From: Gillisia sp. Hel_I_86
Lineage (GTDB): Bacteria; Bacteroidota; Bacteroidia; Flavobacteriales; Flavobacteriaceae
Assembly (NCBI RefSeq): GCF_007827275.1
Contig: NZ_VISE01000001.1
Location: 2,728,001-2,792,000 of the forward strand
DNA: 64,000 bases
Direction of reading: 5' to 3'
Position numbers and translations under genes: made by a program. Numbering within the stretch: the first letter of the stretch is position 1; each line of letters starts with the position of its first letter. Under the pieces are notes generated by a model, which was not told where the DNA came from, did not search any database, and worked only from the letters and a program-made list of their open reading frames with translations. Shown piece by piece: positions 7,182-63,435 of this stretch.

Positions 7182-7199
7182 ATATGATAATCGTCATAT
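7182..7199. promoter_or_regulatory. CRP/FNR-like operator shared by korAB and fdx-nifJ
   Basis: Perfect inverted repeat ATATGA-TAATCG-TCATAT, extendable by one A/T pair on each side. The half-site and 6-bp spacing match the CRP/FNR family layout (compare TGTGA-N6-TCACA). It is centred between two divergent genes, with -7-like boxes exactly 20 bp away on both sides, so one bound dimer could act as a class II activator in both directions. Seven related sites occur elsewhere in the window. Confidence 0.75.
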
Positions 7200-7219
7200 T
7201 ATAGAAGCTTAAATGACTT

Positions 7220-7227
7220 TAATTTTA
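7220..7227 (+). promoter_or_regulatory. -7-like box for fdx-nifJ
   Basis: TAATTTTA matches TAnnTTTG except for the last base and lies exactly 20 bp right of the palindrome at 7182-7199. The same 8-mer occurs in the same geometry at 59474-59481. Confidence 0.5.
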
Positions 7228-7256
7228 TTTCATTATAATCAATAAAACAAGGTAAA

Positions 7257-7607
7257 ATGGCTCTAATCATAACAGACGAGTGCATCAATTGCGATGCTTG
7301 TATTTCAGAATGTCCAAATAATGCAATTTATGAACCGGACCAGGAATGGTCTTATTCAGACGAAACTTCTTTAAGTGGTATGGTAACAACCCCAAATGGG
7401 AAGGATGTTGATGCCGATGCTGAAAACGAACCTATTTCGGATGAATTTTATTTTATTGTGGCCGATAAGTGCACAGAATGTAAAGGCTTCCATGATGAGC
7501 CCCAGTGTGCTTCGGTTTGTCCTGTAGATTGTTGTATACCTGATGGGGACCACGATGAAACCGAAGAACAATTACTGGAGAAAAAGGCCTGGTTACATGG
7601 TGAATAA
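7257..7607 (+). CDS. 2[4Fe-4S] ferredoxin (YfhL/Alvin type)
   Basis: A 116-residue bacterial ferredoxin. First cluster ligands: C9-x2-C12-x2-C15-x3-C19 with a following-type Pro. Second set: C72-x2-C75-x8-C84-x3-C88-P, with extra cysteines C92 and C93. The long spacing between C75 and C84 is typical of Alvin-type ferredoxins. An acidic insertion of about 50 residues separates the motifs and an acidic tail follows. It is the likely electron carrier reduced by NifJ (26 bp downstream) and by KorAB (divergent), and the probable donor to complex I; the partnership is inferred from context. Confidence 0.9.
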   Translation: MALIITDECINCDACISECPNNAIYEPDQEWSYSDETSLSGMVTTPNGKDVDADAENEPISDEFYFIVADKCTECKGFHDEPQCASVCPVDCCIPDGDHDETEEQLLEKKAWLHGE

Positions 7608-7633
7608 AATGGAATGAACTAAATATATGCAAG

Positions 7634-10600
7634 ATGACAAAAGAATTCCCGAAACTTATTTGTGACGCAAACGAAGCGGTTGCAATGGTTGCCCATAAAA
7701 CAAATGAAATTTGCGCTATTTATCCTATAACCCCTGCTTCCCCGATGGGCGAGCATGTAGATGTATATAGTTCTAAAGGAAAAAAGAATATCTGGAACAA
7801 TGTTCCCAGGATTGTTGAAATGCAGAGTGAAGGAGGGGCTGCCGGTGCCGTTCATGGTTCCCTGCAGGCAGGGGCATTGACCACTACTTTCACGGCTTCG
7901 CAAGGGCTTTTGTTAATGATCCCTAATATGTATAAAATAGCAGGAGAATTGTTGCCTACAGTTATACATGTTGCGGCCAGGACCATTGCCACCCATGCTT
8001 TATCCATTTTTGGAGACCATTCAGATGTCATGGCAGTAAGGCAAACCGGGTTTTCCATGTTGTTTGGAGGCTCGGTCCAGGAAGCAATGGATTTTGCATT
8101 GATATCCCAGGTAGCCGCCCTGCATTCCCGGGTTCCTTTTCTGAATATCTTTGACGGTTTTAGGACCTCCCACGAAATTTCCAAGATTGATGGGATTACC
8201 GATGATATTATTAAGGCGATGATGCCGGAAGATAAAATCATGCAGCACAAAAAGAGATCTCTGGATCCTGATAATCCTGTAATAAGGGGAACTTCTCAAA
8301 ATCCTGATGTTTTCTTCCAGGCCCGGGAAGCGGCAAACCTGTATTATGATAAAGTGCCCCAAACCGTTCAGCAAGTCATGGATGAGTTCTACCAGCATAC
8401 CGGTCGCAAATATAAATTGTTTGATTATATAGGTCATCCTAAAGCCGAGCGTGTAATTGTTATTATGGGTTCTGGCGAAGGTGCTGTAAGGGAGGTAATA
8501 GATACTATGGTAGAGCACGGAGAGAAAGTGGGAGTACTGATTATGCGTTTGTACAGGCCATTTTCAATTAAACATTTTATTGATACCCTTCCAAAGACAG
8601 TAAAAAAAGTATCTGTACTGGATCGTACCAAAGAACCGGGAAGTACAGGTGAACCCCTATATTTGGATGTGATTACTGCCTTTGCCGAAAGCGACAGGGC
8701 AATGCCACAAGTAGTTGGGGGCCGTTATGGATTGTCATCGAAAGAATTTAATCCCGCTATGGTAAAAGGAATTTTTGATGAACTTGAAAAAGACCAGCCA
8801 AAAAATCATTACACTATTGGAATTAATGACGATGTAAGCTTTACCAGCTTGTTGTACAATCCGGTATTTAAGACCCGTAAAACAACCTTTAATTGTTTGT
8901 TCTACGGATTGGGATCTGACGGTACTGTTGGGGCCAATAAAAACTCTATTAAAATTATCGGAGAAACCACCAATAATTATGTACAGGGTTATTTTGTTTA
9001 CGATTCTAAAAAAGCGGGTGCCCAAACAGTATCGCATCTTCGCTTTGGACCCGAACCAATTTATTCCAGCTACCTGATAAATACAGCCGATTTTATTGCC
9101 TGCCACCAGTTTAATTTTATCCAGAAATATGATATTCTGAAAAAGATTAAAAAAGGCGGCACCTTTCTATTGAATTCACCATTCTCAAAAGAAGAGATAT
9201 GGAACGAATTGCCGCAAAAAATGCAGGAGGGAATTATAGAAAACGAGTTGGGATTTTATGTGGTAGATGCCACTAAAGTTGCGTATGAAGCTAAACTGGG
9301 CAAAAGAACCAATACGGTTTTACAAACCTGTTTCTTTGCAATTTCAGGGGTGCTGCCAAAAGATGAAGCAATACAAAAAATAAAGGATGCCATTATAAAA
9401 TCTTATTCTCACAAAGGGGATAAGATCGTAAAAATGAATTTCGACGCTGTTGATAAATCCCTTGAGCACCTGCAAAAAGTAGAATATCCTAAACAAATTA
9501 CAAATACCAGAGGCTTAAAACCAATGATGACCGGAGAGGCCGATCCTTTTGTGAAAGAGGTTTTAGGTAAAATCCTTGCGGGTCATGGAGATGAACTTCC
9601 GGTAAGTGCTTTCCCGGTAGACGGCACATTCCCTACAGGAACCACCCAGTATGAAAAACGTGGTATTGCCGACATTATCCCAATTTGGGAAGGGGAAGAC
9701 CTTTGTACACAATGTAATAAGTGTGTGGCTATATGTCCGCACGCAGCCATAAGGGCCAAAGTAGTTCCTAGCGATGAGCTTGCAGATGCCCCGGGTACCT
9801 TAAAATCGGTCCCTGCAAAAGGAAGGCCATTTACAAGTGCGACCGATTCTTATGTGTTACAGGTTTCCCCTGAAGATTGTACGGGCTGTGATCTTTGTGT
9901 GGTCGTTTGTCCTGCTGAAAGCAAAGAAGTTGAAAACTTCAAGGCTATCAATATGAGAAAAAAGCTGGATGTTGCTGCCCAAGAAAACCTTAACTGGGAT
10001 TATTTCATCAACCTTCCAGATTATGACCGTACGGAACTGCAAATAACCAATGTAAAAGGTTCGCAGTTTTTAGAACCGCTGTTTGAATTTTCGGGGGCAT
10101 GTCCGGGATGTGGGGAAACCCCTTACATTAAACTGCTTACCCAGTTATATGGAGATAGTATTTTAATCGCGAATGCTACCGGTTGCTCTTCAATTTACGG
10201 GGGTAATTTACCCACAACCCCATACAAAACCAATGCACTGGGACGGGGTCCTGCCTGGGCCAATTCCTTATTTGAAGATAACGCCGAGTTTGGTTTAGGG
10301 ATGAGGCTGGCCTTGACCAAAAAAGAGGAAATCGCCGTAGATTTATTGAAGTCTTTAGAAGCTGAGGTTGGTAGTGATCTGGTATCGGCAATTATTGAGA
10401 ACCCCGAAGAAACAGAGTTACAAAAGGCCGATAAATTAGCTCAAATAAGATCTTTGAAGAAAATTTTGGATACCCTGGATTCTGAAAATGCCCGTAAGCT
10501 CAATCAATTAACGGAGTATTTGCGCAAGAAGGCTGTCTGGATACTTGGAGGTGACGGCTGGGCTTATGATATAGGCTACGGTGGTGTGGACCATGTGCTG

Positions 10601-11164
10601 GCCTCGGGGGAGAATATCAATATCCTGGTTATGGATACCGAGGTCTATTCAAATACCGGCGGGCAAATGTCCAAAGCTACCCCTCTGGGTGCTAGTGCCA
10701 AGTTTGCGGTTTCTGGTAAACGCACCAGCAAGAAGAGCCTGGCATTACAGGCCGTTTCCTATCAAAACGTTTATGTAGCCCAGATAGCTATTGGGGCAAA
10801 AGATTTACAAACCCTTAAGGCCATTGAAGAAGCTGCTGCGTATCCGGGCCCATCAATAATTATAGCCTATTCTCATTGCGTAGAACACGGTTATGATTTA
10901 AAACACGGAGCTACCCAACAAATCAAAGCGGTAGAAACAGGTTACTGGCCACTGTTCAGGTTTGATCCTTTAAAACCTAAAGGCAAAAAGTTCAAGTTAG
11001 ATTCTAAACCGCCGGCGGCGCCTTTAGAAGACTTTATGTACAACGAAACACGTTTTACAAGGGTTGTCAAAGAGAATGCGGAAATAGGAAAGCAGTTGCT
11101 TGCACAGGCGCAGGAAGAGGTAGAAACCAAATGGGAAAGGTTAGAGCTTTTTAGGGATATGTAA
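7634..11164 (+). CDS. nifJ: pyruvate:ferredoxin (flavodoxin) oxidoreductase
   Basis: A single 1176-residue chain, the normal length for homodimeric PFOR. It oxidises pyruvate with CoA to acetyl-CoA and CO2 and reduces ferredoxin. The N-terminal domain has YPITPASPMGEH. Two internal [4Fe-4S] motifs occur (CTQCNKCVAICP near residue 692 and CTGCDLCVVVCP near 755). The TPP domain has CPGCGETPY (proximal cluster), GDGWAYDIGYGG and a VYSNTGGQMSKATP block. PFOR is oxygen-sensitive in most bacteria, so its presence in an otherwise aerobic-looking flavobacterium suggests a microaerobic mode, consistent with the FNR-like site upstream of the ferredoxin gene. It is very probably co-transcribed with that gene. 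Confidence 0.96.
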   Translation: MTKEFPKLICDANEAVAMVAHKTNEICAIYPITPASPMGEHVDVYSSKGKKNIWNNVPRIVEMQSEGGAAGAVHGSLQAGALTTTFTASQGLLLMIPNMYKIAGELLPTVIHVAARTIATHALSIFGDHSDVMAVRQTGFSMLFGGSVQEAMDFALISQVAALHSRVPFLNIFDGFRTSHEISKIDGITDDIIKAMMPEDKIMQHKKRSLDPDNPVIRGTSQNPDVFFQAREAANLYYDKVPQTVQQVMDEFYQHTGRKYKLFDYIGHPKAERVIVIMGSGEGAVREVIDTMVEHGEKVGVLIMRLYRPFSIKHFIDTLPKTVKKVSVLDRTKEPGSTGEPLYLDVITAFAESDRAMPQVVGGRYGLSSKEFNPAMVKGIFDELEKDQPKNHYTIGINDDVSFTSLLYNPVFKTRKTTFNCLFYGLGSDGTVGANKNSIKIIGETTNNYVQGYFVYDSKKAGAQTVSHLRFGPEPIYSSYLINTADFIACHQFNFIQKYDILKKIKKGGTFLLNSPFSKEEIWNELPQKMQEGIIENELGFYVVDATKVAYEAKLGKRTNTVLQTCFFAISGVLPKDEAIQKIKDAIIKSYSHKGDKIVKMNFDAVDKSLEHLQKVEYPKQITNTRGLKPMMTGEADPFVKEVLGKILAGHGDELPVSAFPVDGTFPTGTTQYEKRGIADIIPIWEGEDLCTQCNKCVAICPHAAIRAKVVPSDELADAPGTLKSVPAKGRPFTSATDSYVLQVSPEDCTGCDLCVVVCPAESKEVENFKAINMRKKLDVAAQENLNWDYFINLPDYDRTELQITNVKGSQFLEPLFEFSGACPGCGETPYIKLLTQLYGDSILIANATGCSSIYGGNLPTTPYKTNALGRGPAWANSLFEDNAEFGLGMRLALTKKEEIAVDLLKSLEAEVGSDLVSAIIENPEETELQKADKLAQIRSLKKILDTLDSENARKLNQLTEYLRKKAVWILGGDGWAYDIGYGGVDHVLASGENINILVMDTEVYSNTGGQMSKATPLGASAKFAVSGKRTSKKSLALQAVSYQNVYVAQIAIGAKDLQTLKAIEEAAAYPGPSIIIAYSHCVEHGYDLKHGATQQIKAVETGYWPLFRFDPLKPKGKKFKLDSKPPAAPLEDFMYNETRFTRVVKENAEIGKQLLAQAQEEVETKWERLELFRDM

Positions 11165-11195
11165 ATTAATTTAGGGAAATAAAATATTTCCTGAA

Positions 11196-11226: not shown

Positions 11227-11277
11227 GAATTATTGAAATTAAATACTTTCTAAGTTTAACTTTAAAAATTATTCACC

Positions 11278-45580: not shown

Positions 45581-45628
45581 TATAATTAAGTTTTAATTTG
45601 TAAAGATGCTCAACCTTCCCTATCTATT

Positions 45629-45646
45629 ATATGACGTTGGTCATAT
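45629..45646. promoter_or_regulatory. CRP/FNR-like operator upstream of the 602-residue gene
   Basis: Perfect palindrome ATATGA-CGTTGG-TCATAT. On the minus strand a weak -7-like CATCTTTA (45601-45608) is exactly 20 bp away. It is the only site of the set whose -7 box lacks the initial T. Confidence 0.65.
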
Positions 45647-52274: not shown

Positions 52275-52859
52275 TTAATTTGAATTTTCGGGTAGGATTA
52301 CTTTATCTACTACGTGTACAATTCCATTTCCCGCAGGTACACTTGCCAATATTTTTGCGCCGCCCACATATACATCATCGCCTTTTACTTCCACCGGAAT
52401 ACTTTGATCACTGGCCTGGCCTAATTTTTTGAACTTTTTAAGGAATTCCTTATTATAATTCCCAGGGGTTACGTGATGTTTAAGGATATATGCCAGTTTT
52501 TCTTTGTTTTCTGGTTTCATTAAATCGTTCAATGTTTCTTCGGGCAACTCTTTAAAAGCTGCATCAGTAGGTGCAAACACCATAAGTGGCCCGGCATTTA
52601 CAAGGACATTTTCCAATTGGGCGGCCTGCACCGCTTTAACCAATATGGTATGATCTTTACTTCCAATGGCAATATCCAATACGGTAGGTTGAGACTCATC
52701 GTCTTTAATAAATGCCTGGCCTTGTCTTTCAGGAGCTTCAGAATTTGAAACTTCTGTAGGGTTTGTATCATCATTTTGTCCCGATTCCTTTTTCTCACCA
52801 CAAGAGATGAACAATAAAATCATCGCAAGAAGAAAGAAGGTTTGAAGTGTTGTTTTCAT
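52275..52859 (-). CDS. FAS1 (fasciclin) domain lipoprotein
   Basis: A 194-residue lipoprotein with Cys20 in LLFISC, an acidic linker of about 40 residues, then one FAS1 domain with the H1 and H2 blocks (VNAGPLMVFAPTDAAFKELP, YILKHHVTPGNY, IVHVVDKVILP). FAS1 domains mediate adhesion or protein assembly. It sits between the cytochrome c gene and nosZ (10 bp before nosZ), so a role in assembling or anchoring the N2O-reducing complex is plausible but not shown. Confidence 0.9.
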   Translation of the reverse strand: MKTTLQTFFLLAMILLFISCGEKKESGQNDDTNPTEVSNSEAPERQGQAFIKDDESQPTVLDIAIGSKDHTILVKAVQAAQLENVLVNAGPLMVFAPTDAAFKELPEETLNDLMKPENKEKLAYILKHHVTPGNYNKEFLKKFKKLGQASDQSIPVEVKGDDVYVGGAKILASVPAGNGIVHVVDKVILPENSN

Positions 52860-52882: not shown

Positions 52883-53383
52883 TTATTTTAGTGTTCTAAA
52901 ATATTCCAAAATTTGTCTAGCTTCCTCCTCGGTTAACCCTTGATTAGCCATTGGAGCTCCGTTATAGTCAATAAGTAATTGTTTGGCCACAGGATCGTTT
53001 TGAACCATCTCCACGGGGTTTAATATCATGTTCATTACCCATTCCGGCGATCTTCTTTCTAGAACACCAATGGGCGCCGGACCTATAAATTTCTTAGTTG
53101 GTTTGTGACAGGCAAGACATTTAGAATCAAATATCGCTTTTCCCTTAGCCACCATTCCCTGATCTATATTTTCAGGAAGCTCCAAATTCTTAACAGGCCC
53201 AATACCTTTATTGGACATATCAATAAGATCTGCTTCCGGAGGAGCGGCCTCTGGTTCTTTTACCACATTTTTTTCATAATCGCCCAATTGGATTTCTTCT
53301 TTTTCTTTTTTGTCCCCTTTTCCGCCGCAACTAACAAGCAGTGCAAATCCGAAGAGGAAGAGGCTTTTAAATACATATTTCAT
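52883..53383 (-). CDS. monohaem cytochrome c lipoprotein
   Basis: A 166-residue lipoprotein with Cys19 in LLVSC, an acidic/proline-rich linker to residue 70, and a class I cytochrome c domain with the haem motif C89-LA-C92-H93 and a C-terminal axial Met candidate in PMANQGLTEEE. It is the first gene of the nosZ operon and the likely electron donor to NosZ. A CRP/FNR-like operator lies 52 bp upstream with a perfect -7 box between. Confidence 0.92.
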   Translation of the reverse strand: MKYVFKSLFLFGFALLVSCGGKGDKKEKEEIQLGDYEKNVVKEPEAAPPEADLIDMSNKGIGPVKNLELPENIDQGMVAKGKAIFDSKCLACHKPTKKFIGPAPIGVLERRSPEWVMNMILNPVEMVQNDPVAKQLLIDYNGAPMANQGLTEEEARQILEYFRTLK

Positions 53384-53406: not shown

Positions 53407-53414
53407 CAAAATTA
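53407..53414 (-). promoter_or_regulatory. -7 box of the nos operon
   Basis: TAATTTTG on the minus strand, an exact TAnnTTTG match, exactly 20 bp from the palindrome at 53435-53452 and 24 bp upstream of the cytochrome c start codon. Confidence 0.6.
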
Positions 53415-53434: not shown

Positions 53435-53452
53435 ATATGACGATAATCATAT
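53435..53452. promoter_or_regulatory. CRP/FNR-like operator of the nos operon
   Basis: Perfect palindrome ATATGA-CGATAA-TCATAT, extendable by one A/T pair. It fits class II activation of the minus-strand nos promoter. Confidence 0.75.
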
Positions 53453-53783
53453 TAAAGATAAAATTATCGTTTATTAATTGTTGCTCTTATCCATATCATC
53501 ATTTTTTCATTCTGATCTATATAGCAACATTCGATATTCTAGTTGTTTTTTACGGTGTTGGAGCCGCGCATTACCTTTTTCCCTCCATGGGAGTCCATTA
53601 AAATTAAATTTGTTTTTATATGTATGGTGTCCCTTTTATTATGTCTTTTATTTTAAAATAATCCTGAACCCCATTACCAGAATCTAAAACGAAGTATCAC
53701 CCTACAAACACCTCATTAAAGAAAGCAAGTAATTTGATAGCTTTATATTTATTGTCTAAAGTATCGCTTTGTGCTGGTTGGGA

Positions 53784-53801
53784 ATATGATAAATATCATA
53801 A
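53784..53801. promoter_or_regulatory. second CRP/FNR-like site in the nos-mla intergenic region
   Basis: ATATGA-TAAATA-TCATAA, one mismatch from perfect. On the minus strand TACTTTAG (53756-53763) lies 20 bp away, which would start a transcript running into the nos operon. No gene lies between, so it may be a second nos promoter or a leader RNA. Confidence 0.5.
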
Positions 53802-53968: not shown

Positions 53969-53986
53969 ATATGATCTATATCATTT
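53969..53986 (+). promoter_or_regulatory. CRP/FNR-like operator and promoter of the mla operon
   Basis: ATATGA-TCTATA-TCATTT, with two mismatches in the right arm. An exact -7 box TATATTTG lies 20 bp downstream at 54007-54014, and the mlaE start follows 22 bp later. Confidence 0.65.
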
Positions 53987-54036
53987 CTATTGGCACCAAC
54001 CCCTTTTATATTTGAGTTTGGAATAAATTTAGTTCT

Positions 54037-54816
54037 ATGGGGAGAGAGAAAACCATAATGGATAGTTCAAAAGTGTTTTTTGCTGAAATAGGTGACATGA
54101 CTTATTTCACTGCCCGATTCTTTCGGGAGGCCTTTAAGCCACCTTTTGAGTTTAAAGAATTATTGCGGCAATGTTATAACATGGGCAATCGTTCGCTATT
54201 ATTGGTAGGGGTTACGGGCTTTATTTTAGGTTTGGTATTTACCATACAGTCTAGGCCAACGCTAATGGAATTTGGCGCAGAATCTTGGATGCCTTCCATG
54301 GTTAGTATCTCAATCGTTAGGGAGATAGGCCCGGTTATAATCGCTCTTATTTCTGCAGGAAGGATAGGATCAGGCATCGGTGCAGAACTTGGATCCATGA
54401 GGGTTACAGAGCAAATTGATGCTATGGAGGTTTCGGGCACCAATCCATTCAAATACCTGGTGGTTACTCGAATATTGGCTACTACCTTAATGTTGCCATT
54501 ACTGATTCTTATAGGTGATGCCATAGCACTTTTCGGTTCAGCGATCATCGAAAATCTAAAAGGTGAAGTTTCTTTCCAGCTCTATTTCAATCAGGTTTTT
54601 GATGCACTTAGCTTTGCCGATCTAATTCCCGCCACCATAAAATCCTTCTTTTTTGGATTCGCTATAGGCTTGGTGGGATGTTATAAGGGATATTATTGTT
54701 CCAAAGGTACAGTAGGAGTGGGAGAGGCTTCTAATGCCGCCGTTGTCTATACATCCATGTTATTGTTTGTAATAGATTTTATAGCTGTTTTTGTAACCGA
54801 TATATTTTATGGATAA
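54037..54816 (+). CDS. mlaE: MlaE-family ABC permease
   Basis: A 259-residue inner-membrane permease with about five hydrophobic segments and the family elements GFILGLVFTIQSRPTLMEFG, ISAGRIGSGIGAELGSMRVT and SGTNPFKYLVVTRI. It forms the membrane core of an MCE-type phospholipid transporter between inner and outer membrane. A second in-frame ATG seven codons later (54058) is possible. Its stop overlaps the next start (TAATG). Confidence 0.92.
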   Translation: MGREKTIMDSSKVFFAEIGDMTYFTARFFREAFKPPFEFKELLRQCYNMGNRSLLLVGVTGFILGLVFTIQSRPTLMEFGAESWMPSMVSISIVREIGPVIIALISAGRIGSGIGAELGSMRVTEQIDAMEVSGTNPFKYLVVTRILATTLMLPLLILIGDAIALFGSAIIENLKGEVSFQLYFNQVFDALSFADLIPATIKSFFFGFAIGLVGCYKGYYCSKGTVGVGEASNAAVVYTSMLLFVIDFIAVFVTDIFYG

Positions 54817-55568
54817 TGCAAGATCCTATCAACATAGCACCCGTCTTGGAAGTAAAGGATTTAAAAAAATCTTTTGGCGGTCAAGCAGTGCTCAACGGTT
54901 TTAACTTGAAACTTTTTAAAGGTGAGAGTCTGGTGGTAATGGGCAAATCGGGTTCGGGGAAATCTGTAATGATAAAGTGCCTGGTTGGTTTAATACAAGC
55001 CGATAGTGGAAGTATTAAGATCAAAGATCATGACATTACCAAGTTGGGTCAAAAAGAATTGGATATTTTGCGAACAGAGATTGGATTTTTATTTCAGGGA
55101 AGTGCCCTTTATGATTCCATGACGGTTCGCGAAAATCTGGAATTCCCCTTGAGACGCCATAAAAAAATGCTTAAATTAAAAGAACATACAGAAACCCTGG
55201 TTTTGGAAGCATTGAATAGCGTAGGGCTGGCGCATGCCATAGATCTTATGCCAGCAGAACTTTCTGGCGGAATGCAGAGGAGGGTAGCCTTGGCAAGAGC
55301 CCTTATTTTAAAGCCAAAAATAATTTTGTATGACGAGCCCACAACGGGTCTGGACCCCATAACGTCCAAGGAAATAATTGAGCTTATGCGAACTATTCAA
55401 GATACATATAATACTTCTTCGTTAATCATAACCCATGATGTGGACTGTGCACGAGTAATTTCCAATAGGATGATATTATTGGTAGATGGGATTAATTATG
55501 TAGAAGGCACTTATCAGGAATTATTAGCTTCTAATGATCCAAAAGTGAAAGCATTCTTTAAAAATTAA
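54816..55568 (+). CDS. mlaF: MlaF-family ABC ATPase
   Basis: A 250-residue ATPase with Walker A MGKSGSGKSVMIK, signature LSGGMQRRVALARAL and Walker B IILYDEPTTGLDP, followed by the H-loop ITHD. It energises the MlaE permease and is translationally coupled to it. Confidence 0.93.
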   Translation: MQDPINIAPVLEVKDLKKSFGGQAVLNGFNLKLFKGESLVVMGKSGSGKSVMIKCLVGLIQADSGSIKIKDHDITKLGQKELDILRTEIGFLFQGSALYDSMTVRENLEFPLRRHKKMLKLKEHTETLVLEALNSVGLAHAIDLMPAELSGGMQRRVALARALILKPKIILYDEPTTGLDPITSKEIIELMRTIQDTYNTSSLIITHDVDCARVISNRMILLVDGINYVEGTYQELLASNDPKVKAFFKN

Positions 55569-55573: not shown

Positions 55574-56557
55574 ATGAACAAGTCAACTTCACAAAAAATA
55601 AAATTGGGGGTATTTGTAGTTGTAGGATCGCTTCTTCTTTTTGCTGCCCTATATTTTATAGGAAATAGACAGTATTTATTCAGTAATAACATTCAGATCT
55701 ATGCGGAATTTGCCAATGTGAATGGTTTGCAACTAGGGAATAATGTGCGCTATTCTGGAATTAATGTGGGAACGGTAGGTAAAATTGAAATGCTAGGGGA
55801 ATCAAAAATCATTATCGAGATGGTGGTGGAAGAAAAGACGGGCAATTTTATTCGGAAAAATGCTATTGCTACTATTGGTTCAGATGGTTTGGTTGGAAGT
55901 ATGGTAGTGAATATACTTCCCGGAAAAGGAGAGGCTCCATTTGTAACTTCTGGCGATACTATTGTATCCTATAGTAAAATTGGGGCAGACGATATGCTAT
56001 CTACTTTAAATGTCACCAATGAAAATGCAGCATTGCTTACTTCGGATTTATTGAAGATCACCAATAAAATCCTGGAAGGTAAAGGAACGCTTGGGGTTTT
56101 GATCGCAGACACCACAATGGCAGGGAACATTAAAGAAACCATAGAGAAACTCAAAGCAACTACTATAAGTACTTCTAATACCATGCACAAATTAAATAAA
56201 GTGATTGCTAAAATAAATATGGAGGGAAGTGTGGCCGGTGTCCTTCTTAATGATACGGTCACTGGGCAACAATTAAAAACAGTGCTCAATAATTTAGAGC
56301 AATCCAGCGACGATATAAATGGTACGACAAACAACTTAGAAGGGATTGTTGCGGAAATAAAAAATGGGGAAGGCGCTCTAAATTACCTAACAACAGATGA
56401 GGAGTTGGTGAAGGATATAGACTCCACCATGCTATATATAAAAGAATCGACTTTTAAGTTGAACCAAAATATGGAAGCCTTAAAACACAATTTTTTCTTT
56501 AGGGGGTATTTTAGAAAGTTGGAAAGACAAAAAAAGAGAGAAAATAAACGCAATTAA
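55574..56557 (+). CDS. mlaD: MCE/MlaD-family periplasmic lipid-binding protein
   Basis: A 327-residue protein with one N-terminal membrane anchor (residues about 10-30) and an MCE domain (about 37-115, FANVNGLQLGNNVRYSGINVG). A long helical region with repeated GTLGVLI and GSVAGVLLND motifs follows, as in Bacteroidota MlaD homologues, and a basic tail. It forms the periplasmic ring of the lipid transporter. Confidence 0.9.
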   Translation: MNKSTSQKIKLGVFVVVGSLLLFAALYFIGNRQYLFSNNIQIYAEFANVNGLQLGNNVRYSGINVGTVGKIEMLGESKIIIEMVVEEKTGNFIRKNAIATIGSDGLVGSMVVNILPGKGEAPFVTSGDTIVSYSKIGADDMLSTLNVTNENAALLTSDLLKITNKILEGKGTLGVLIADTTMAGNIKETIEKLKATTISTSNTMHKLNKVIAKINMEGSVAGVLLNDTVTGQQLKTVLNNLEQSSDDINGTTNNLEGIVAEIKNGEGALNYLTTDEELVKDIDSTMLYIKESTFKLNQNMEALKHNFFFRGYFRKLERQKKRENKRN

Positions 56558-58189: not shown

Positions 58190-58238
58190 AAAACATGACA
58201 ATTGTCATGTTTTAAATAGAAGAGCTTATGTATCTTAG
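58190..58238 (+). promoter_or_regulatory. CRP/FNR-like operator and -7 box for a non-coding transcript
   Basis: A perfect 24-bp palindrome at 58190-58213 is centred on ACATGA-CAATTG-TCATGT. TATCTTAG (58231-58238), one mismatch from TAnnTTTG, lies 20 bp downstream of the 18-bp core. No substantial gene follows before a terminator, so the promoter seems to drive a small RNA or a very short peptide. Confidence 0.65.
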
Positions 58239-58410
58239 TAATCTAGTTGAAAATAATAGTTCTTTGATACTTATAAAAGCATTGGTTCTTATTGCAGCAA
58301 TGCAGTAAAAATCATTAGGAGGCAAGTTTGTTCTTGAAGAAGTGATGAGGCATTTTCGTAATGGAGTGTCTAACATACTCTCTATTAATAGGACATTTTT
58401 AGTCTTCTAT

Positions 58411-58444
58411 AAATCGGGGGAGTCTTTAGGGATTTCCCCGATTT
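58411..58444. repeat. hairpin inside the candidate small RNA
   Basis: AAATCGGGG (58411-58419) pairs with CCCCGATTT (58436-58444). No T-run follows, so it is more likely a structural element or early weak terminator. Confidence 0.6.
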
Positions 58445-58574
58445 AAAATTATAAGCCTTAAATTTTATATAATAGCCGATTTTGAAACGTCTGTAAAGAT
58501 TCATTTTTCTTGATTTCTAGATTAATTTGTAGAGGTTGTCAAGATAATTAATCAACTGCAGTTCGTTTTAAAGA

Positions 58575-58609
58575 AACAGGGGTCTTACTTAAGGTCCCTG
58601 TTTTTTTTT
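58575..58609 (+). terminator. intrinsic terminator, plus strand
   Basis: AACAGGG (58575-58581) pairs with CCCTGTT (58596-58602); the loop can extend the stem (CTT/AAG). Nine T follow from 58601. Orientation fits a plus-strand transcript coming from the operator at 58190, not the minus-strand peroxiredoxin gene. Confidence 0.8.
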
Positions 58610-58637
58610 AATCCCTCTGGCCAGCTTGGCAAGTTCC

Positions 58638-58702: not shown

Positions 58703-59368
58703 TTAGTCTAATTTCAGATCTTTTTTAGCCAAATAGAAGTCTACTTTCTCGTAGGAGTCATCCTTGATTCTTTTTTCCATTTCTTTCAACGTTTTTGGTG
58801 GTGGTACAATTACTTTATCTCCTTTTTTCCAGTTTAAGGGTAAGGCCACACTATATTCATCGGAAATTTGTAGTCCCATTAGCGCTCTTAAGATTTCATC
58901 CATATTTCGTCCTACATTCAAAGGATAGTACATTATCAATCTGATTTTGAAATAGGGATCAATAAAAAACACAGCTCTTACTGCTGCTGTTTCGCTTTCA
59001 TTTGGTTGTAGCATTCCATACAACTTTGCCACCTTCATATCTATATCTGCAATAATTGGAAAATCCAGGTAGACTCCGGTTTTTTCTTTTACATTGTTTA
59101 CCCACGCCAAATGAGAGTGGATACTATCTATGCTCAAACCTATTAGTTTTGTATTGAGCGCATCAAATTCATTTTTTCTTTCTGCAAAGCCACTTAGTTC
59201 AGTGGTGCATACTGGGGTGAAATCTGCAGGATGTGAAAATAAGATCACCCATTTCCCATCGGCAAAATCTGAAAATTGGAGTTTTCCATGGGTCGTTATT
59301 GCTTCAAAATCTTCAGCATTATCGCCAATTCGAGGCATGTAGTACAGTTGCTTTTCTTCAGTTTCCAT
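58703..59368 (-). CDS. 1-Cys peroxiredoxin (Prx6 type)
   Basis: A 221-residue peroxiredoxin. The peroxidatic cysteine is in the motif HPADFTPVCTTELSGF, and the Prx6-type C-terminal domain has YPLNVGRNMDEILRAL and PLNWKKGDKVIVPPP. No resolving cysteine is seen. It reduces H2O2 or organic peroxides using an external thiol donor. The promoter carries a CRP/FNR-like palindrome 67 bp upstream. Confidence 0.94.
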   Translation of the reverse strand: METEEKQLYYMPRIGDNAEDFEAITTHGKLQFSDFADGKWVILFSHPADFTPVCTTELSGFAERKNEFDALNTKLIGLSIDSIHSHLAWVNNVKEKTGVYLDFPIIADIDMKVAKLYGMLQPNESETAAVRAVFFIDPYFKIRLIMYYPLNVGRNMDEILRALMGLQISDEYSVALPLNWKKGDKVIVPPPKTLKEMEKRIKDDSYEKVDFYLAKKDLKLD

Positions 59369-59435
59369 GACTATTTAATTAAATGGTTATTTTTTTTTAA
59401 CTCCTATTAAATATAATTTTCATGTATCTGGATTC

Positions 59436-59453
59436 ATATGACTTTAATCATAT
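59436..59453. promoter_or_regulatory. CRP/FNR-like operator shared by peroxiredoxin and ArsC-like gene
   Basis: Perfect palindrome ATATGA-CTTTAA-TCATAT, extendable by a C/G pair. -7-like boxes lie exactly 20 bp away on both sides: TATATTTA (minus strand, 59408-59415) and TAATTTTA (plus strand, 59474-59481). This is the same bidirectional layout as at 7182-7199. Confidence 0.72.
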
Positions 59454-59584
59454 GGAAATTGCGGGATAGTAAGTAATTTTAAATACCTGTTTAAAGTCTG
59501 GTTTATTAATGGTAGAAGTCCTAAAACAAAAAAAAACCGGGTTTAAAGGAGAAGAGCATATTCAACAAAAATCATTGTTAAAAA

Positions 59585-59950
59585 ATGGGAGAAATAGCCA
59601 CATCAAAAAGACAAATCACCTTGTTTTATAATCCCAATTCTATTCGGGCAAAGAAAACATTGGCATTTGCCAAAGCTGAAGGTTTTCCTATCCTGCAAGT
59701 AAACCTCCTTAAAACCAAACTTACAGGTACACAAATTGCAGAATTGGCAAATAAACTGAATTTGGAGATTAAGGATCTAATTAACCAAGAACATCCCTCT
59801 TACAGCTCCCATTTTAAACCCCATGAACTTTCTGGGGAGGATTGGGTGAAAATGATACAGCATCAACCAGAAATCATGAAGCAACCCGTTGCATTGCGAG
59901 GTGACATAACCATACTTATAGAAACCCCTACAGATATTATAAAAATTTAA
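59585..59950 (+). CDS. ArsC/Spx-family-like protein lacking the catalytic cysteine
   Basis: A 121-residue protein with the ArsC thioredoxin-like fold. Where arsenate reductases have a Cys after the first strand (NPxCSKS), it reads FYNPNSIRAKKTL, with Ser, and it contains no Cys at all. The middle YSSHFKPHELSGEDW and the C-terminal QPVALRGDITILIETPTDI match the family's RP-type block in position. A redox-enzyme function is therefore unlikely; a binding or regulatory role is inferred. It starts an apparent plus-strand operon. Confidence 0.75.
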   Translation: MGEIATSKRQITLFYNPNSIRAKKTLAFAKAEGFPILQVNLLKTKLTGTQIAELANKLNLEIKDLINQEHPSYSSHFKPHELSGEDWVKMIQHQPEIMKQPVALRGDITILIETPTDIIKI

Positions 59951-59961
59951 TAGTTGTTGTT

Positions 59962-60609
59962 ATGAAAAAGATCTTTATACTTTTGAATATTTTGATGCTT
60001 TCTTCCTGTTCTTCCACGCAATTTGTAGATAGTTGGAAAAATAAGGAACTAAGGGAATTTCAACCTCAAAAGACATTGGTAATAGGGGTTACCCAGAATT
60101 TAACCGCGCGTAAAATTTTTGAAGAAAATTTAACAAAGGAATTAGTGAGAAGGGGGTTGCCAGCTGTAGAGGGTTTATCTGTTTTGGAACCATCTTTTAT
60201 AAATTCGGAAAAAACGGAAGAGGAAATAAACCGGATGATTGAGGGACTTTCAGATGCAGGTTTCGATGCCGTTATAGTAACTGCTTTAAAAGGGGTGGAA
60301 GATAAGAAAAACTATAACCCAGATTATTATATCACCAATTATAGATGGACAAGGTTTGGAAGGTACTACTATAGATACCAGGATATATATTATAATCCAG
60401 GTTACTACAATAATTATAAAGTATTTCATGTAGAAACATCTATCTATAAATTGCAACAGACGGAGGGCAAATCTTTAGTTTGGGTAGGAGCATTTAATAT
60501 TGTAAACCCACAAACCATAACTTCTACTCTAAACGATTATATCAAAGCAATTATTAAAAAACTGGAAAAAGATAAGGTTATACCTAGTGTAAATGAATGG
60601 AATATCTAA
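59962..60609 (+). CDS. conserved lipoprotein of unknown function, 215 residues
   Basis: A lipoprotein with LMLSSC lipobox (Cys16). The body begins VDSWKNKELREFQPQKTLVI and has a central Tyr-rich stretch (GRYYYRYQDIYYNPGYYNNY). It resembles DUF4136-like Bacteroidota lipoproteins in outline. Starts 11 bp after the ArsC-like gene, so it is probably in the same operon. Function unknown. Confidence 0.75.
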   Translation: MKKIFILLNILMLSSCSSTQFVDSWKNKELREFQPQKTLVIGVTQNLTARKIFEENLTKELVRRGLPAVEGLSVLEPSFINSEKTEEEINRMIEGLSDAGFDAVIVTALKGVEDKKNYNPDYYITNYRWTRFGRYYYRYQDIYYNPGYYNNYKVFHVETSIYKLQQTEGKSLVWVGAFNIVNPQTITSTLNDYIKAIIKKLEKDKVIPSVNEWNI

Positions 60610-60691
60610 CAAATATTTCCCTCCAAGATACTTTACCCTATAAAAAACTATAGATTTTCTAAAAAAAAAATCATTTCTTAATTCTAATAAA

Positions 60692-61525
60692 ATGGATAAA
60701 ATTCTTGTGCCTATAGATTTTTCCGAGCACTCAGAATTCGCATTGCGGGTAGCAGCGGCTATTGCAAGGAAAAATAATCGTGAAATCGTAGCACTCCATA
60801 TGTTAGGGCTCTCCGATGAAGGTCTTACCAAGGTGGAAACCCAAGAACTGCAAGAAGCGATTTTAAATTTAAAATTTTCTGATAGTAAGTTTACAGATTT
60901 CCTGAACCGTGTATATCTAAATGGAGTTAAAATTCAGCATGCGGTGCAGCGAAATAAAGATTTTTTTGAAATCGATGCTATTGCAAAAAAGTTTGGAGCC
61001 GATTTAATAGTTATGGGTTCCCATGGCAGTAAAGGCTTAAGCGAGGTTCTTGTTGGATCTAATACAGAGAAAGTAGTGCGCACATCTAGTTTGCCTGTTT
61101 TAGTTATTAAGAGTCCTGTGGTGAACTTTAAATTTAAAAAAGTTGTATTTGCCTGCGATTTCAAAGAAGATTATATTGAACCATTTTGCAAGGCTTGGAA
61201 CTTTTTTAAACCTTATAAAAGTTTATTTAAGATCCTTTATATAAATCATCCAGAAAACTTTTTGAGCAATCAAGAAATGGAGGAAAAAGCGATGGAATTT
61301 ATTAAACAGGCCGGGATAAAGGATCTAAATTATTTAGAAGACATCATTTTTTACAACGATTATAATTTAGAAGAAGGGATCTACCGTTTTAGCAAAAAGT
61401 TCGAGGCAGATGTCGTTGCAATCCCTACACGTGGGAGAAGGGGGATAGCTCACTTTTTTTCAGCAAATAAAGGGGAATCCTTGGTGAACCATTCAGATAT
61501 ACCCATCATGACTTTTAAAAAATAG
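60692..61525 (+). CDS. tandem universal stress protein
   Basis: A 277-residue protein with two USP domains. The first has the ATP-type motif GADLIVMGSHGSKGLSEVLV-then-GSNTEKVVRTS; the second has ADVVAIPTRGRRGIAHFF and ends in SDIPIMTFKK. Two-domain USPs are common in Bacteroidota. It follows the lipoprotein gene by 82 bp, likely as the last gene of the operon under the bidirectional operator at 59436. Confidence 0.92.
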   Translation: MDKILVPIDFSEHSEFALRVAAAIARKNNREIVALHMLGLSDEGLTKVETQELQEAILNLKFSDSKFTDFLNRVYLNGVKIQHAVQRNKDFFEIDAIAKKFGADLIVMGSHGSKGLSEVLVGSNTEKVVRTSSLPVLVIKSPVVNFKFKKVVFACDFKEDYIEPFCKAWNFFKPYKSLFKILYINHPENFLSNQEMEEKAMEFIKQAGIKDLNYLEDIIFYNDYNLEEGIYRFSKKFEADVVAIPTRGRRGIAHFFSANKGESLVNHSDIPIMTFKK

Positions 61526-61576
61526 AATTGCTTTTGGCTATCTAGTTTTTCTTAAATCAATTAGGTCGGACACCCA

Positions 61577-62455
61577 TTATAATAACAATGGATTGGAATT
61601 ATGCTGTTTTAATACAGGTTTCAATAATTCTAGGGGAATGCTAACAGAAAAAGTTCCCGTATAAGCCGGACAGATAACACAATCATCAAAGAAATATTCT
61701 ACGGTTAAATTGTTGATCACAAAATTATCTTTACTGCTATAAAAATCTTCTGCTGAAATTTCCCAACAGTCATAATAAATTTCTCCAGATTTTATTTTTT
61801 TGGAGAGCACTTCATTTAATATTTCCCTAAGCTCTTCTTCAGATCCTGTATTAAAGAAATCTTCATATTTCATAAACTTGGAATTCACCAAATCATAATT
61901 AAAGCTATCGAAAGAATAAGAAGGATAGGGCTTTCTGTGGTAATAGGTCTCATTATAGAAGAGCACGCTGATCAACTTATCATCTAGGCTAAAAATTTTA
62001 TAATCGACCATCTTTTTGGATCTATCATCACGCGTTCGTGTAGAATCACAAACCACTTCTCCCTCTTCCAAAATAGCTTTCTCCACGCCTTCTATATCCA
62101 AATAATCTTTTTCTAAATAGCTGTTGAAATTGGCGTGGGACTGGTTGATTCCTTCATTTAAATAAGGATATTTAAAAGTGATTAGATAACAGTCTTCATC
62201 TTTTAAAAATGATTTGGATAAAACGAGTTCTTTCAATTCCTCTTGGTCATCCTCTTTTTTAAGTATTGATTCTCTTTTGATTTTTAAAGATTGTTCTCTC
62301 TGAAATTCAATTTCGTCCAAGCCGGTTATAGAGTCATTGCTTTTTGTATCGCGCTGTTTCTCTAATTGAATACGCTTGTATTCCATTTGCTTGGACGTCT
62401 CTTTTTTACATGCCAATAAACTTATGCAGATTACCAGTATTATCAGGATTTTCAT
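61577..62455 (-). CDS. DUF3298 (RsiV-like) domain lipoprotein
   Basis: A 292-residue lipoprotein with Cys16 in SLLAC, a charged linker to about residue 75, a first domain with ITFKYPYLNEGI, and a C-terminal DUF3298-type region (YDLVNSKFMKYEDFF, EELREILNEVLSKKI, FSVSIPLELLKPVL). This domain occurs in the anti-sigma factor RsiV, but here there is no N-terminal anti-sigma segment, so a different envelope role is likely. Confidence 0.75.
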   Translation of the reverse strand: MKILIILVICISLLACKKETSKQMEYKRIQLEKQRDTKSNDSITGLDEIEFQREQSLKIKRESILKKEDDQEELKELVLSKSFLKDEDCYLITFKYPYLNEGINQSHANFNSYLEKDYLDIEGVEKAILEEGEVVCDSTRTRDDRSKKMVDYKIFSLDDKLISVLFYNETYYHRKPYPSYSFDSFNYDLVNSKFMKYEDFFNTGSEEELREILNEVLSKKIKSGEIYYDCWEISAEDFYSSKDNFVINNLTVEYFFDDCVICPAYTGTFSVSIPLELLKPVLKQHNSNPLLL

Positions 62456-62490
62456 AAAAGATGTATTTAATCTTTATTGAGGTTTAATTT

Positions 62491-62524
62491 CCCGAGGCCT
62501 GCCCGTAATGTTTGGGTGGGCTTG
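62491..62524. repeat. 34-bp intergenic repeat, copy 2
   Basis: Same family as 58638-58671 (CCCGAGGCCTGCCCGTAATG and following), in the DNA upstream of the DUF3298 gene. Confidence 0.5.
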
Positions 62525-62605
62525 TAAGGGGATTCTTGATTCTAAAAACGCCGTTAAAATTCTATGTACGTTTTTAGGTACTTATAAAATTCAAATTCTG
62601 TTTAA

Positions 62606-62890
62606 TCAATAAAGGCCATTTACTATGATTATTAGGCTGTTCACAACGACACTTAACAAGAGCAGGTCTAATATTAATTTTGGTTTTTGAATCGTAAGAA
62701 TAGCAGCATTATGGGTATTGCATACAATTACTGTAATAACCACCATAAACTTATGCAGAAATCCATTGCCATGCATTAGGGAGGTCACTACAGCAATGGA
62801 GCCTATACCCGTAGAGGCAATAATTCCTATAGAAGAATACCCGATTACGTTCTCAGAAAAGTCGATTTTCATTTTTGTGTAAAGTGTCAT
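62606..62890 (-). CDS. small membrane protein, 94 residues
   Basis: Starts MTLYTKMKIDFSENVIGYSS and has about three hydrophobic segments (IGIIASTGIGSIAVV, FMVVITVIVC, LLLLSVVVNSLIII). No recognised family. The ATG at 62890 is preferred over a TTG at 62917. It lies 68 bp after the TerB-like gene on the same strand and is probably co-transcribed with it. Confidence 0.6.
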   Translation of the reverse strand: MTLYTKMKIDFSENVIGYSSIGIIASTGIGSIAVVTSLMHGNGFLHKFMVVITVIVCNTHNAAILTIQKPKLILDLLLLSVVVNSLIIIVNGLY

Positions 62891-62958
62891 ATCGATTTTG
62901 TTTAGTGATACCGGCAACTCGAAAGGCTGTCTTCTCTCGAAATATTAAAATAATCACT

Positions 62959-63369
62959 TTACTGATTTCCTTCAAATAATAATTTAAGTTTAGCAAGGAT
63001 CATAAGTTCTGCCTTGTTTTTTCCTGCAAATTCATTTGCAATTGCATTTGCGGTTTTTAAAATGAGCTGTTTTCGTTCTTTAGTGAATAATTTAGGGTGT
63101 TTTTCAAAATAGTCTTTAAAGCTCTCATAACATTCTTTCGCATCGGCTTGTTCATGGTCAAACCATTCAAAAACAATTTCAATTTGATAGGCTGCATTTG
63201 TACCAAATTCATCTTTGGAATTTTCCGGTTTTCGCCAATTGGATATAACAAGTTCACATAAGCGTTCATATTCCTGCTCCCTAACTACTTTATCTACTGC
63301 AGCAATGGCATAGAATAATTCCCCCAATTTTTGATAGAATATTAATTCTGGTTCTATAATTTTCTGCAT
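62959..63369 (-). CDS. TerB-like protein
   Basis: A 136-residue all-helical acidic protein. Its N-terminal half (FYQKLGELFYAIAAVDKVVREQEYERLCELV) follows the TerB-like pattern of helices with acidic residues; shown in parts: ELFYAIAAVDKVV, REQEYERLCELV. TerB-like domains occur in tellurite and stress-response modules. A CRP/FNR-like site lies 49 bp upstream. Specific function unknown. Confidence 0.65.
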   Translation of the reverse strand: MQKIIEPELIFYQKLGELFYAIAAVDKVVREQEYERLCELVISNWRKPENSKDEFGTNAAYQIEIVFEWFDHEQADAKECYESFKDYFEKHPKLFTKERKQLILKTANAIANEFAGKNKAELMILAKLKLLFEGNQ

Positions 63370-63417
63370 GGTTAAAGGATTTTATTTTATAAATTTACCA
63401 GCCTCTATGGATAGTAA

Positions 63418-63435
63418 CAATGATAATTATCATTA
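63418..63435 (-). promoter_or_regulatory. CRP/FNR-like operator and promoter of the TerB-like operon
   Basis: AATGA-TAATTA-TCATT core palindrome, with the 18-mer CAATGA-TAATTA-TCATTA. On the minus strand TAAATTTA (63390-63397) lies exactly 20 bp away. Divergence at the outer base pairs makes it the weakest palindrome with good spacing. Confidence 0.55.

Follow-up and report, generated by a model that had tools for sequence, protein, structure and literature searches.

The 64,000-nt stretch of the Gillisia sp. Hel_I_86 genome analyzed here (the window) carries one palindrome in front of several operons, including that of the Sec-dependent nitrous oxide reductase, which raises the question of whether these genes form a regulon and which protein reads its sites. 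A sequence-only reading of the window had claimed eight intergenic palindromes of the form ATATGA-N6-TCATAT or close variants, four of them perfect, as the sites of a shared CRP/FNR-type regulon with class II geometry. Re-scanning recovered all eight where they had been placed, four with perfect arms (Table 1), and none lies within an ORF longer than 150 aa. Perfect palindromes number 4 in the window versus about 0.07 in simulated sequence, and of the 6 perfect copies in the whole genome 4 fall in this window, which makes up 1.5% of it (binomial 7.6e-7). Loose palindromes (≤3 mismatches) are not above chance in the window (73 versus 70.4 expected), so their counts were dropped as evidence.

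With at most one mismatch allowed, a TAnnTTTR box lies exactly 20 bp from the palindrome on 10 of 16 palindrome sides, the same count as in the sequence-only reading, versus at most 3 of 16 sides at any other distance from 0 to 49 bp; perfect boxes on these sides number 7 at 20 bp, 1 at 14 bp and 1 at 37 bp. The ten boxed sides are spread over all eight palindromes, the weakest being that at 45629 (CATCTTTA, 2 mismatches to TAnnTTTG). Across the whole genome, ATGA-N6-TCAT followed by TAnnTTT gave 32 matches over 21 gap lengths, with 16 of the 32 at a single gap that equals 20 bp when measured from the 18-bp palindrome (binomial 2e-13; 4e-12 corrected for 21 gaps). These 16 pairs are not all independent, because two have their palindrome in common (both-sided) and two lie within a 300-bp duplication, in an appraisal covering all but the two pairs at 4.11 and 4.17 Mb. 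Around 80 loci that encode a receiver-CRP fusion protein (REC-CRP, described below), we counted 464 matches at 20 bp, whereas the 44 remaining distances averaged 4.8 and none exceeded 24; every one of the 80 loci carries at least one site. Eight control palindrome patterns showed no 20-bp peak, one of them having 14 sites only and zero box matches. Random spacing, which would have spoken against the regulon, thus failed by a wide margin (16 of 32 at one gap). The sites combine dimeric TGA-N6-TCA half-sites with a fixed distance to a -7 box, the first base of the box lying 29.5 bp from the palindrome centre; relative to the predicted transcription start, this equals the geometry of a class II activator near -41.5. 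We conclude that the observation of repeated palindromes with fixed box spacing is confirmed, and that sites and spacing support a shared CRP/FNR-type regulon.

Table 1. Palindromes, boxes, genes and candidate regulators in and next to the window (window coordinates; strand "." marks sites between divergent genes).
Feature	Position	Strand	Details
Palindrome, perfect	7182..7199	.	between divergent kor and ferredoxin/PFOR genes; boxes at 20 bp on both sides, 7154-7161 TATATTTG (-) and 7220-7227 TAATTTTA (+)
kor genes	5259-7127; 4246-5256	-	left of palindrome 7182
ferredoxin/PFOR genes	7257-7607; 7634-11164	+	right of palindrome 7182
Palindrome, perfect	45629..45646	-	5' of 602-aa protein, unknown family (43772-45580, -); weak box at 20 bp, 45601-45608 CATCTTTA
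Palindrome, perfect	53435..53452	-	5' of cytochrome c, fasciclin protein and nosZ; box 53407-53414 TAATTTTG
cytochrome c; fasciclin protein; nosZ	52883-53383; 52275-52859; 50300-52264		behind palindrome 53435; nosZ, Sec-dependent nitrous oxide reductase
Palindrome, 1 mismatch	53784..53801	-	weak leftward box 53756-53763 TACTTTAG; without clear target
Palindrome, 1 mismatch	53969..53986	+	5' of Mla genes; box 54007-54014 TATATTTG
MlaE permease; ABC ATPase; MlaD	54037-54816; 54816-55568; 55574-56557		behind palindrome 53969
Palindrome, 2 mismatches	58193..58210	+	5' of structured RNA candidate; box 58231-58238 TATCTTAG
Candidate structured RNA	58240..58612	+	about 370 nt; ends in hairpin with U tract
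Palindrome, perfect	59436..59453	.	between divergent peroxiredoxin and ArsC/Spx-like gene; boxes 59408-59415 and 59474-59481
peroxiredoxin	58703-59368	-	flanks palindrome 59436
ArsC/Spx-like gene; next gene; USP	59585-59950; 59962-60609; 60692-61525	+	flank palindrome 59436
Palindrome, degenerate, 4 mismatches	63418..63435	-	5' of 136-aa protein (62959-63369, -); box 63390-63397 TAAATTTA
Histidine kinase, FixL/DosP-type PAS	63648..64000 in window, ends 64811	+	387 aa
REC-CRP1, receiver-CRP fusion	64818-65873 (L027:1818-2873)		351 aa; next after kinase, beyond window

The predicted targets hold in part: boxed sites precede the Kor, ferredoxin/PFOR, nos, Mla and peroxiredoxin genes and the run from the ArsC/Spx-like gene to USP. 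The 602-residue protein, with a perfect palindrome but a weak box (2 mismatches), is a less certain target, and the label "TerB-like" for the 136-aa protein found no support in Pfam or NCBIfam. The palindrome at 53784 may be non-functional or auxiliary. Sites near ackA-pta (about 3.105-3.109 Mb) do not directly precede these genes, which we therefore do not claim as targets.

Conservation in relatives was followed at kor, nos, ccoN and the genes near REC-CRP, each kor and nos locus being oriented by tblastn. A site with a perfect box at 20 bp lies 5' of nosZ in 29/30 loci and a site lies 5' of kor in 15/20, our genome included in both; the 5 kor loci scored as lacking one include a locus (L179) in which the site overlaps the aligned gene start. 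For ccoN, of the cbb3 oxidase, the site is found in 9/10 loci and is absent from one. Homologues of the 136-aa protein follow 57 of 455 sites in 80 loci, and the both-sided site at 59436 recurs in locus L064. Near REC-CRP the distal half-site reads CTGA in 257/385 sites and the proximal half TCAT in 384/385; we did not take this asymmetry as a REC-CRP signature, because most of the sites at nos and kor are symmetrical.

The "possible small RNA" that had been suggested at 58193 stands as a structured RNA candidate that is conserved in Gillisia mitskevichiae together with the arms and box of its palindrome. The plus strand contains no ORF of at least 35 aa between 58240 and 58612, and the fold of this segment has a z of -6.58 that none of 100 shuffles reached. 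A homologue in L064 is 85% identical, and the two sequences share 110 consensus pairs, none broken; their covariation is not beyond shuffles (54/500 reach it), two sequences being weak evidence. A search of 461 bases against Rfam returned no known RNA family at gathering score, the best sub-threshold match being isrP (33.4 bits versus 45 required, E 9e-5 for 461 bases). The RNA probably belongs to the regulon.

Which protein reads the sites? The sequence-only reading had inferred one low-oxygen or N-oxide regulator and suggested looking for a Crp/Fnr gene marked by conserved cysteines or haem binding; on this point the genome disagreed, yielding no Fnr orthologue and, in REC-CRP1, a protein without a cysteine cluster. 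HMM and protein searches of this one assembly found no standalone Fnr: an Fnr query matched only two REC-CRPs (E 1e-25), and the five full Crp proteins examined among six HTH_Crp_2 matches (the sixth being a 63-aa frame at the contig start) include no Fnr. The best candidates are these two fusions, each with a paired histidine kinase: REC-CRP1, whose gene begins 0.8 kb past the end of the window, and its paralogue REC-CRP2 elsewhere in the genome; either may read the sites. REC-CRP1 consists of a Response_reg domain (8.8e-29) followed by cNMP_binding and HTH_Crp_2. Its receiver carries the phospho-acceptor Asp, acidic pair and Lys of response regulators, and D9, D10, D52 and K104 as well as the recognition helix ATE-x-LIR occur in 78/78 orthologues examined, which had passed a filter (78 of 80 loci) that itself required D-x-MMP, including D52, and ATE or TES/TET. 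The helix core ATE-xx-IR is common to REC-CRP orthologues, REC-CRP2 and a standalone Fnr. The only Cys of REC-CRP1 lies inside the receiver, and 55/78 orthologues have none after residue 130; sensing therefore probably resides in the partner kinase rather than in REC-CRP1. A forward site precedes the kinase/REC-CRP1 operon in only 1/72 loci, and thus we saw no sign of autoregulation.

We consider it probable that the palindromes are dimeric CRP/FNR-type class II activator sites, read here by REC-CRP1 under a FixL/DosP-like haem kinase that senses low oxygen. On this model, a dimeric activator of the CRP/FNR type would bind the palindrome at about -41.5 and contact a polymerase whose flavobacterial sigma reads TAnnTTTR, and a palindrome with boxes on both sides could drive a pair of divergent promoters. 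Many relatives have the box together with a standalone Fnr; in our genome the sites would most likely be read by REC-CRP1, in which a FixJ-like receiver and a FixK-like DNA binder appear joined in one protein. The partner kinase would sense low oxygen through its PAS haem and phosphorylate receiver Asp52, upon which the CRP part would bind and activate the kor, PFOR, nos, cbb3, Mla, peroxiredoxin and USP/Hsp20 genes, with the structured RNA as a probable further target.

Chance or a repeat artefact, to which the window total of loose palindromes would be congenial, has a negligible claim against exact spacing and conservation far beyond chance, the spacing histograms having already refuted it. 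A more serious alternative, though an unlikely one, is an ordinary FNR regulon in which a standalone Fnr, missed here, reads all sites and REC-CRP controls something else. A standalone Fnr carrying CxxC in its N-terminal part does exist in Flavobacterium-like genomes (L144-L147, L149); in L144 it adjoins cbb3 genes bearing the same palindrome. The 49 Fnr-only genomes hold 220 site matches versus 21 in the control, which means that REC-CRP is not the only regulator to go with this motif. Against this, our genome offered the Fnr query nothing beyond its two fusions, six genomes with a full REC-CRP and no detected Fnr (ours included) keep 73 matches versus 2, and the site stands before ccoN in all four REC-CRP-only genomes with a ccoN match, ours among them. 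The 85 genomes with neither regulator show a small excess (25 versus 14, p 0.018), and two REC-CRP genomes outside family f1 (G141, G177) show none. It is more doubtful still that another Crp-family protein of the genome is the activator: proteins of the L023, L024 and L026 types are present, the L024 type at 2.809 Mb, close to where the sites cluster, but their recognition helices differ (SRVVISR, TRAVVNR) and the three fall outside the group formed by REC-CRP and Fnr (100/99). The L024 type was rejected because it also matches in 16 genomes that have neither REC-CRP nor Fnr and that together hold only 5 motif matches (control 0).

REC-CRP could also read the sites in response to a signal other than oxygen, such as redox, light, nitrite/NO or energy state, with a kinase PAS that resembles FixL in sequence but not in function, a possibility to which we give an appreciable minority share. 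The kinase paired with REC-CRP2 carries a domain of the LOV type (YtvA family, 5e-51), making light a possible input to this paralogue; the targets include the stress proteins USP, Hsp20 and peroxiredoxin; and the FixL-like haem assignment of the PAS domain rests on sequence, with the solved PAS kinase 10jx also matching (4.6e-11), between the FixL/DosP and LOV matches. Yet the nearest solved PAS domains are DosP (7e-17) and FixL (2e-16), with E-values about ten orders of magnitude below that of the top LOV match (3e-6), and the targets include several enzymes of low-oxygen metabolism (cbb3, nos, PFOR, Kor). At the positions of the haem-ligand His and the distal Arg of FixL, the kinase orthologues have His in 73/73 and Arg in 69/73, consistent with a FixL-type sensor and with low oxygen as the predicted signal to REC-CRP1.

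Extending this reading, we lean slightly towards the view that in much of Bacteroidota the low-oxygen regulon is run by a FixL-FixJ-FixK pathway compressed to a single receiver-Crp/Fnr protein behind the kinase. On this view the sites stay while Fnr serves them in some lineages and REC-CRP in others (or both do), a paralogue paired with a LOV-type kinase may add light, and a new structured RNA takes part. The sites provide a cis-code for the control of low-oxygen genes in Flavobacteriaceae that is precise and testable and takes in Sec-dependent nitrous oxide reductase operons, relevant to N2O turnover, and the strict 20-bp rule makes such regulons readable straight from genomes of this group. 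REC-CRP is named as a concrete regulator family for these and other low-oxygen operons, and the exchange of Fnr for a two-component fusion on standing sites would be a natural case testable over many genomes. Among titles and opening lines of abstracts in the open-licence literature, we found none that described this motif or a comparable fusion of receiver and CRP domains.

The system resembles alphaproteobacterial FixL-FixJ-FixK (PMC4999443) in having a FixL-type PAS kinase beside a response regulator and, as output, a protein of the Crp/Fnr type acting on cbb3 and further low-oxygen genes; in either group, a lineage that lacks Fnr has a two-component route. The alphaproteobacterial proteins act in series, FixJ being a response regulator that itself binds DNA and FixK a separate Crp/Fnr protein (PMC4999443). 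Here, in contrast, one 351-aa protein joins the receiver to cNMP_binding and HTH_Crp_2, so that no separate fixK step is needed.

FNR, ANR and FnrN regulons use class II sites at -41.5 with two TGA-N6-TCA half-sites and target cbb3, nos and anaerobic energy enzymes. Our sites are alike in half-sites, placing and targets such as cbb3 and nos, but differ from the FNR consensus in their outer bases ATA; they work with the flavobacterial promoter element TAnnTTTR, and the candidate regulator has a receiver and lacks the cysteine cluster in a sensory domain that marks FNR proper. In mycobacterial DosRS, a haem-type kinase is coupled to the response regulator DosR, which is of the NarL type, recognizes a different DNA site and controls universal stress proteins, Hsp20 and ferredoxin. 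The kinase (haem-type by prediction here), the response regulator and the stress-protein, Hsp20 and ferredoxin targets are alike, whereas our output domain is HTH_Crp_2 and not of the NarL type. The standalone Fnr proteins of Flavobacterium-like genomes share the palindrome, the 20-bp geometry and the helix core ATE-xx-IR with REC-CRP but lack the receiver, their N-terminal CxxC suggesting direct sensing.

All eight palindromes of the ATATGA-N6-TCATAT family, predicted CRP/FNR-type sites, that had been named as the basis of a shared regulon in the sequence-only reading were confirmed, four of the eight being perfect. The claim that TAnnTTTR boxes, the flavobacterial -7-like promoter element, lie exactly 20 bp away was borne out on 10 of the 16 palindrome sides (at most one mismatch), and at any other distance from 0 to 49 no more than three sides in the window carry a box. 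Palindromes with up to three mismatches occur in the window at chance level (73 found, 70.4 expected). The whole genome, a single contig of 4,245,106 bases, contains six perfect palindromes, four of them inside the window. A genome-wide search for ATGA-N6-TCAT with TAnnTTT 12-32 bases further on (21 gap lengths) upheld the fixed distance, with 16 of 32 matches sharing the one gap that corresponds to 20 bp from the 18-bp palindrome; these 16 are not all independent, two being copies in a 300-bp duplication and two pairs each sharing one palindrome. The palindrome centre lies 29.5 bp from the first base of the box, and if this base were -12 the centre would fall at -41.5. This is the class II position of CRP and FNR. 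At sites 7182 and 59436 (named by their start in the window), which separate divergent genes, a perfect box flanks the palindrome on either side, so that a single site can serve a pair of promoters. The spacer of the sites found holds little information past its first four bases, and palindrome and box are sharp, core and box being partly fixed by the selection of sites.

Candidate target genes, regulators and neighbouring features (L-numbers denote stretches of this genome)
Feature	Position	Remarks
Eight palindromes	window 7182, 45629, 53435, 53784, 53969, 58193, 59436, 63418	
Kor subunits	window	target
Ferredoxin and PFOR	window	target
MlaE/ATPase/MlaD	window	target
Cytochrome c-fasciclin-NosZ	window	target; NosZ Sec-dependent type (TIGR04246, 6e-289)
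Peroxiredoxin	window	target; 1-Cys-type C-terminal domain
ArsC/Spx-like protein	window	target
USP	window	target
136-aa protein	window	target; no family
602-aa protein	window 43772-45580	directly behind a perfect palindrome; no Pfam/NCBIfam match
Stretch without long ORF	window	target
USP genes	contig 2793883, 2794883, 2797520, 2803231	right of window; box at 20 bp (one mismatch at 2793883)
Hsp20	contig 2800379	right of window; one-mismatch box at 20 bp
WG-repeat protein	contig 2803362	right of window; box at 20 bp
Acetyl-CoA hydrolase/transferase	contig 2806848	right of window; one-mismatch box at 20 bp
Multicopper-oxidase-cytochrome c protein	contig 2715452	one-mismatch box; looks like a nitrite reductase
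PEP-synthase-like enzyme	3.10 Mb	second site group; alcohol dehydrogenase further off
387-aa PAS histidine kinase	starts inside window	directly before REC-CRP1
REC-CRP1	0.8 kb beyond window end	351 aa; receiver, cNMP_binding, HTH_Crp_2
REC-CRP2	3.83 Mb	356 aa; paired with the 1086-aa kinase
1086-aa kinase	L030:5848-9108	PAS, GAF, LOV-type domain
Transposase-like gene (518 aa)	L030:2227-4492 (contig 3828226-3830491)	flanked by a pair of identical 300-bp direct repeats, with two family palindromes per repeat
ORF inside USP cluster	L027:7886-8731	weak ATP-cone-like and Mrr-type endonuclease-like matches; same place kept in Gillisia mitskevichiae
Transposase-looking ORFs (by eye)	L029:1659-4611	left of window, near nirK-like gene
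HTH_Crp_2 matches at contig ends	contig 1-1676 and 4234764-4237886	nearly equal scores

The sequence-only reading had called for a check for a Crp/Fnr gene with conserved cysteines or a haem motif elsewhere in the genome. Two fusions of a receiver to a CRP-type output (REC-CRP) were found; a Flavobacterium-like Fnr query matched nothing in this genome beyond them, so that no standalone Fnr orthologue was detected with it. The best named match of REC-CRP1 is in Gillisia mitskevichiae (81% identity; records very near this genome were perhaps omitted). A site with a perfect box lies about 310 bp before the ORF of the kinase paired with REC-CRP2, whose LOV-type domain (residues 386-513) matches the YtvA family at 5e-51 and, judged by this family match, might possibly bring blue-light input into the same regulon. 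The 300-bp repeats near REC-CRP2 are an unusually long duplication around an apparent insertion sequence. The HTH_Crp_2 profile has six matches in the genome; the two at the contig's ends, and one motif-like site found near both ends, putatively represent an overlap or duplication of the ends.

Among solved structures, the closest relatives of the PAS domain of the REC-CRP1 kinase are DosP (6.8e-17) and FixL (1.6e-16 to 1.8e-13), followed by the multi-sensor kinase PAS 10jx (4.6e-11), with LOV entries beginning at 3.1e-6. Its alignment to FixL 1d06 is gapless across the region in which FixL carries its haem-ligand His and distal Arg, and residues of both kinds are present at these positions in the kinase. 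The His is found in 73 of 73 kinases and the Arg in 69 of 73, the set comprising 72 kinases from 80 REC-CRP loci plus this one, after exclusion of six loci in which an earlier filter had recognised no REC-CRP ORF and two without an upstream kinase.

The same geometry recurs around REC-CRP genes of relatives. In 80 such loci (the best 80 of 546 confirmed matches, 1.59 Mb), TGA-N6-TCA and TAnnTTTR occur together 464 times at 20 bp, compared with 4.8 times on average at the other 44 distances, of which 21 bp has the most (24); none of eight control palindrome patterns gave a peak at 20 bp, one of them having just 14 sites and zero box matches. With a perfect core, at most four arm mismatches and a perfect TAnnTTT required, the count is 455 site-box pairs, located at 438 places, with at least one in each locus; 47 lack an ORF in the next 400 bp downstream, and for 89 the downstream ORF has no counterpart in the stretches read from this genome. 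Upstream of nosZ, 30 loci were compared (those of the best 30 among 97 matching genomes, out of 199, this one included): 29 have a palindrome with a perfect box at 20 bp and the remaining one has a weak match. Upstream of korA palindrome and box at 20 bp occur in 15 of 20 loci (20 of 120 matching genomes, this one included). The two halves of sites near REC-CRP differ: among 385 one-sided sites, 257 have CTGA as the distal half and 384 have TCAT as the proximal half. Most nos and kor sites are symmetric.

Site numbers were then compared with regulator content in 196 Flavobacteriales genomes, using regulator classes made by hand and a reversed-pattern control. Matches numbered 73 versus 2 in the control for REC-CRP only (6 genomes), 259 versus 11 for REC-CRP with an Fnr of at least 39% identity (16 genomes), 220 versus 21 for Fnr only (49 genomes), 38 versus 3 for REC-CRP with a weaker Fnr-like protein (7 genomes) and 169 versus 6 for the weaker protein only (33 genomes); the 85 genomes with neither regulator had 25 versus 14, a small remaining excess (p = 0.018). 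Within one family (f1), genomes with a REC-CRP orthologue of at least 51% identity average 16.6 sites (14 genomes), those at 40-45% identity 12.7 (9 genomes) and those without an orthologue 6.6 (17 genomes), with control means of 0.4-0.9. Another Crp protein of this genome, the L024 type, was considered as the reader of the sites; it is an unlikely one, since the 16 genomes that have it without REC-CRP or Fnr total five matches. Full-length REC-CRP relatives extend to several other families of the class and were present in 43 of the 296 Bacteroidota genomes sampled.

That REC-CRP and Fnr read one DNA code is consistent with their recognition helices. The receiver residues and the helix ATE-(S/T)-LIR are invariant in the 78 of 80 REC-CRP loci passing a filter that itself demanded D-x-MMP and an ATE or TES/TET string (two failed), so the invariance arises partly by selection; ATE-xx-IR is common to REC-CRP2 and standalone Fnr. 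In CRP numbering, Glu181 and Arg185 are kept and Arg180 is absent, in keeping with a TGA core that lacks the CRP site's outer G. A 26-sequence tree separates REC-CRPs, Fnrs and three standalone Crp proteins of relatives from this genome's own L023-, L024- and L026-type Crp proteins (100/99), with several forks open and a warning for long branches. In a Flavobacterium-like stretch (L144) the standalone Fnr adjoins cbb3 genes, and the same sites occur there. ccoN was matched in 10 of 12 chosen genomes and has an upstream site at 20 bp in 4 of 4 genomes with REC-CRP only (this one included), 3 of 3 with Fnr only and 2 of 3 with both; this distribution across regulator classes is what one would expect if the regulator had changed while the sites stayed.

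The stretch downstream of site 58193 (58240-58612) is a candidate structured RNA, with a fold z of -6.58 (0 of 100 shuffles as good) and a strong hairpin plus U tract at its end. Gillisia mitskevichiae (L064) has a homologue that is 85% identical, at the corresponding position ahead of the peroxiredoxin gene, with palindrome arms and box TATCTTAG identical to those of site 58193; it is the only clear homologue among the loci compared, most of which may not extend to this position. Every one of the 110 consensus pairs holds in the two-sequence alignment, three through changes on both sides, a level of covariation that 54 of 500 shuffles of the two sequences reached. The stretch might encode a small protein, as both homologues have three short ORFs, two of them (26 and 34 aa) on this strand and the third (54 aa) on the opposite one.

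The REC-CRP1 system would work like FixLJ-FixK of alphaproteobacteria. Passages of one account describe FixL as sensing O2 by haem and FixK as controlling cco and other redox genes, and propose loss of FnrN and gain of fixLJ-fixK in Caulobacterales (PMC4999443). In contrast to FixLJ-FixK, REC-CRP unites receiver and Crp/Fnr output in one protein; no description of this architecture or of its sharing of Fnr sites was found in the literature searched. The type of regulon is already known, and the new part would be the architecture of the regulator and its proposed use of Fnr sites.
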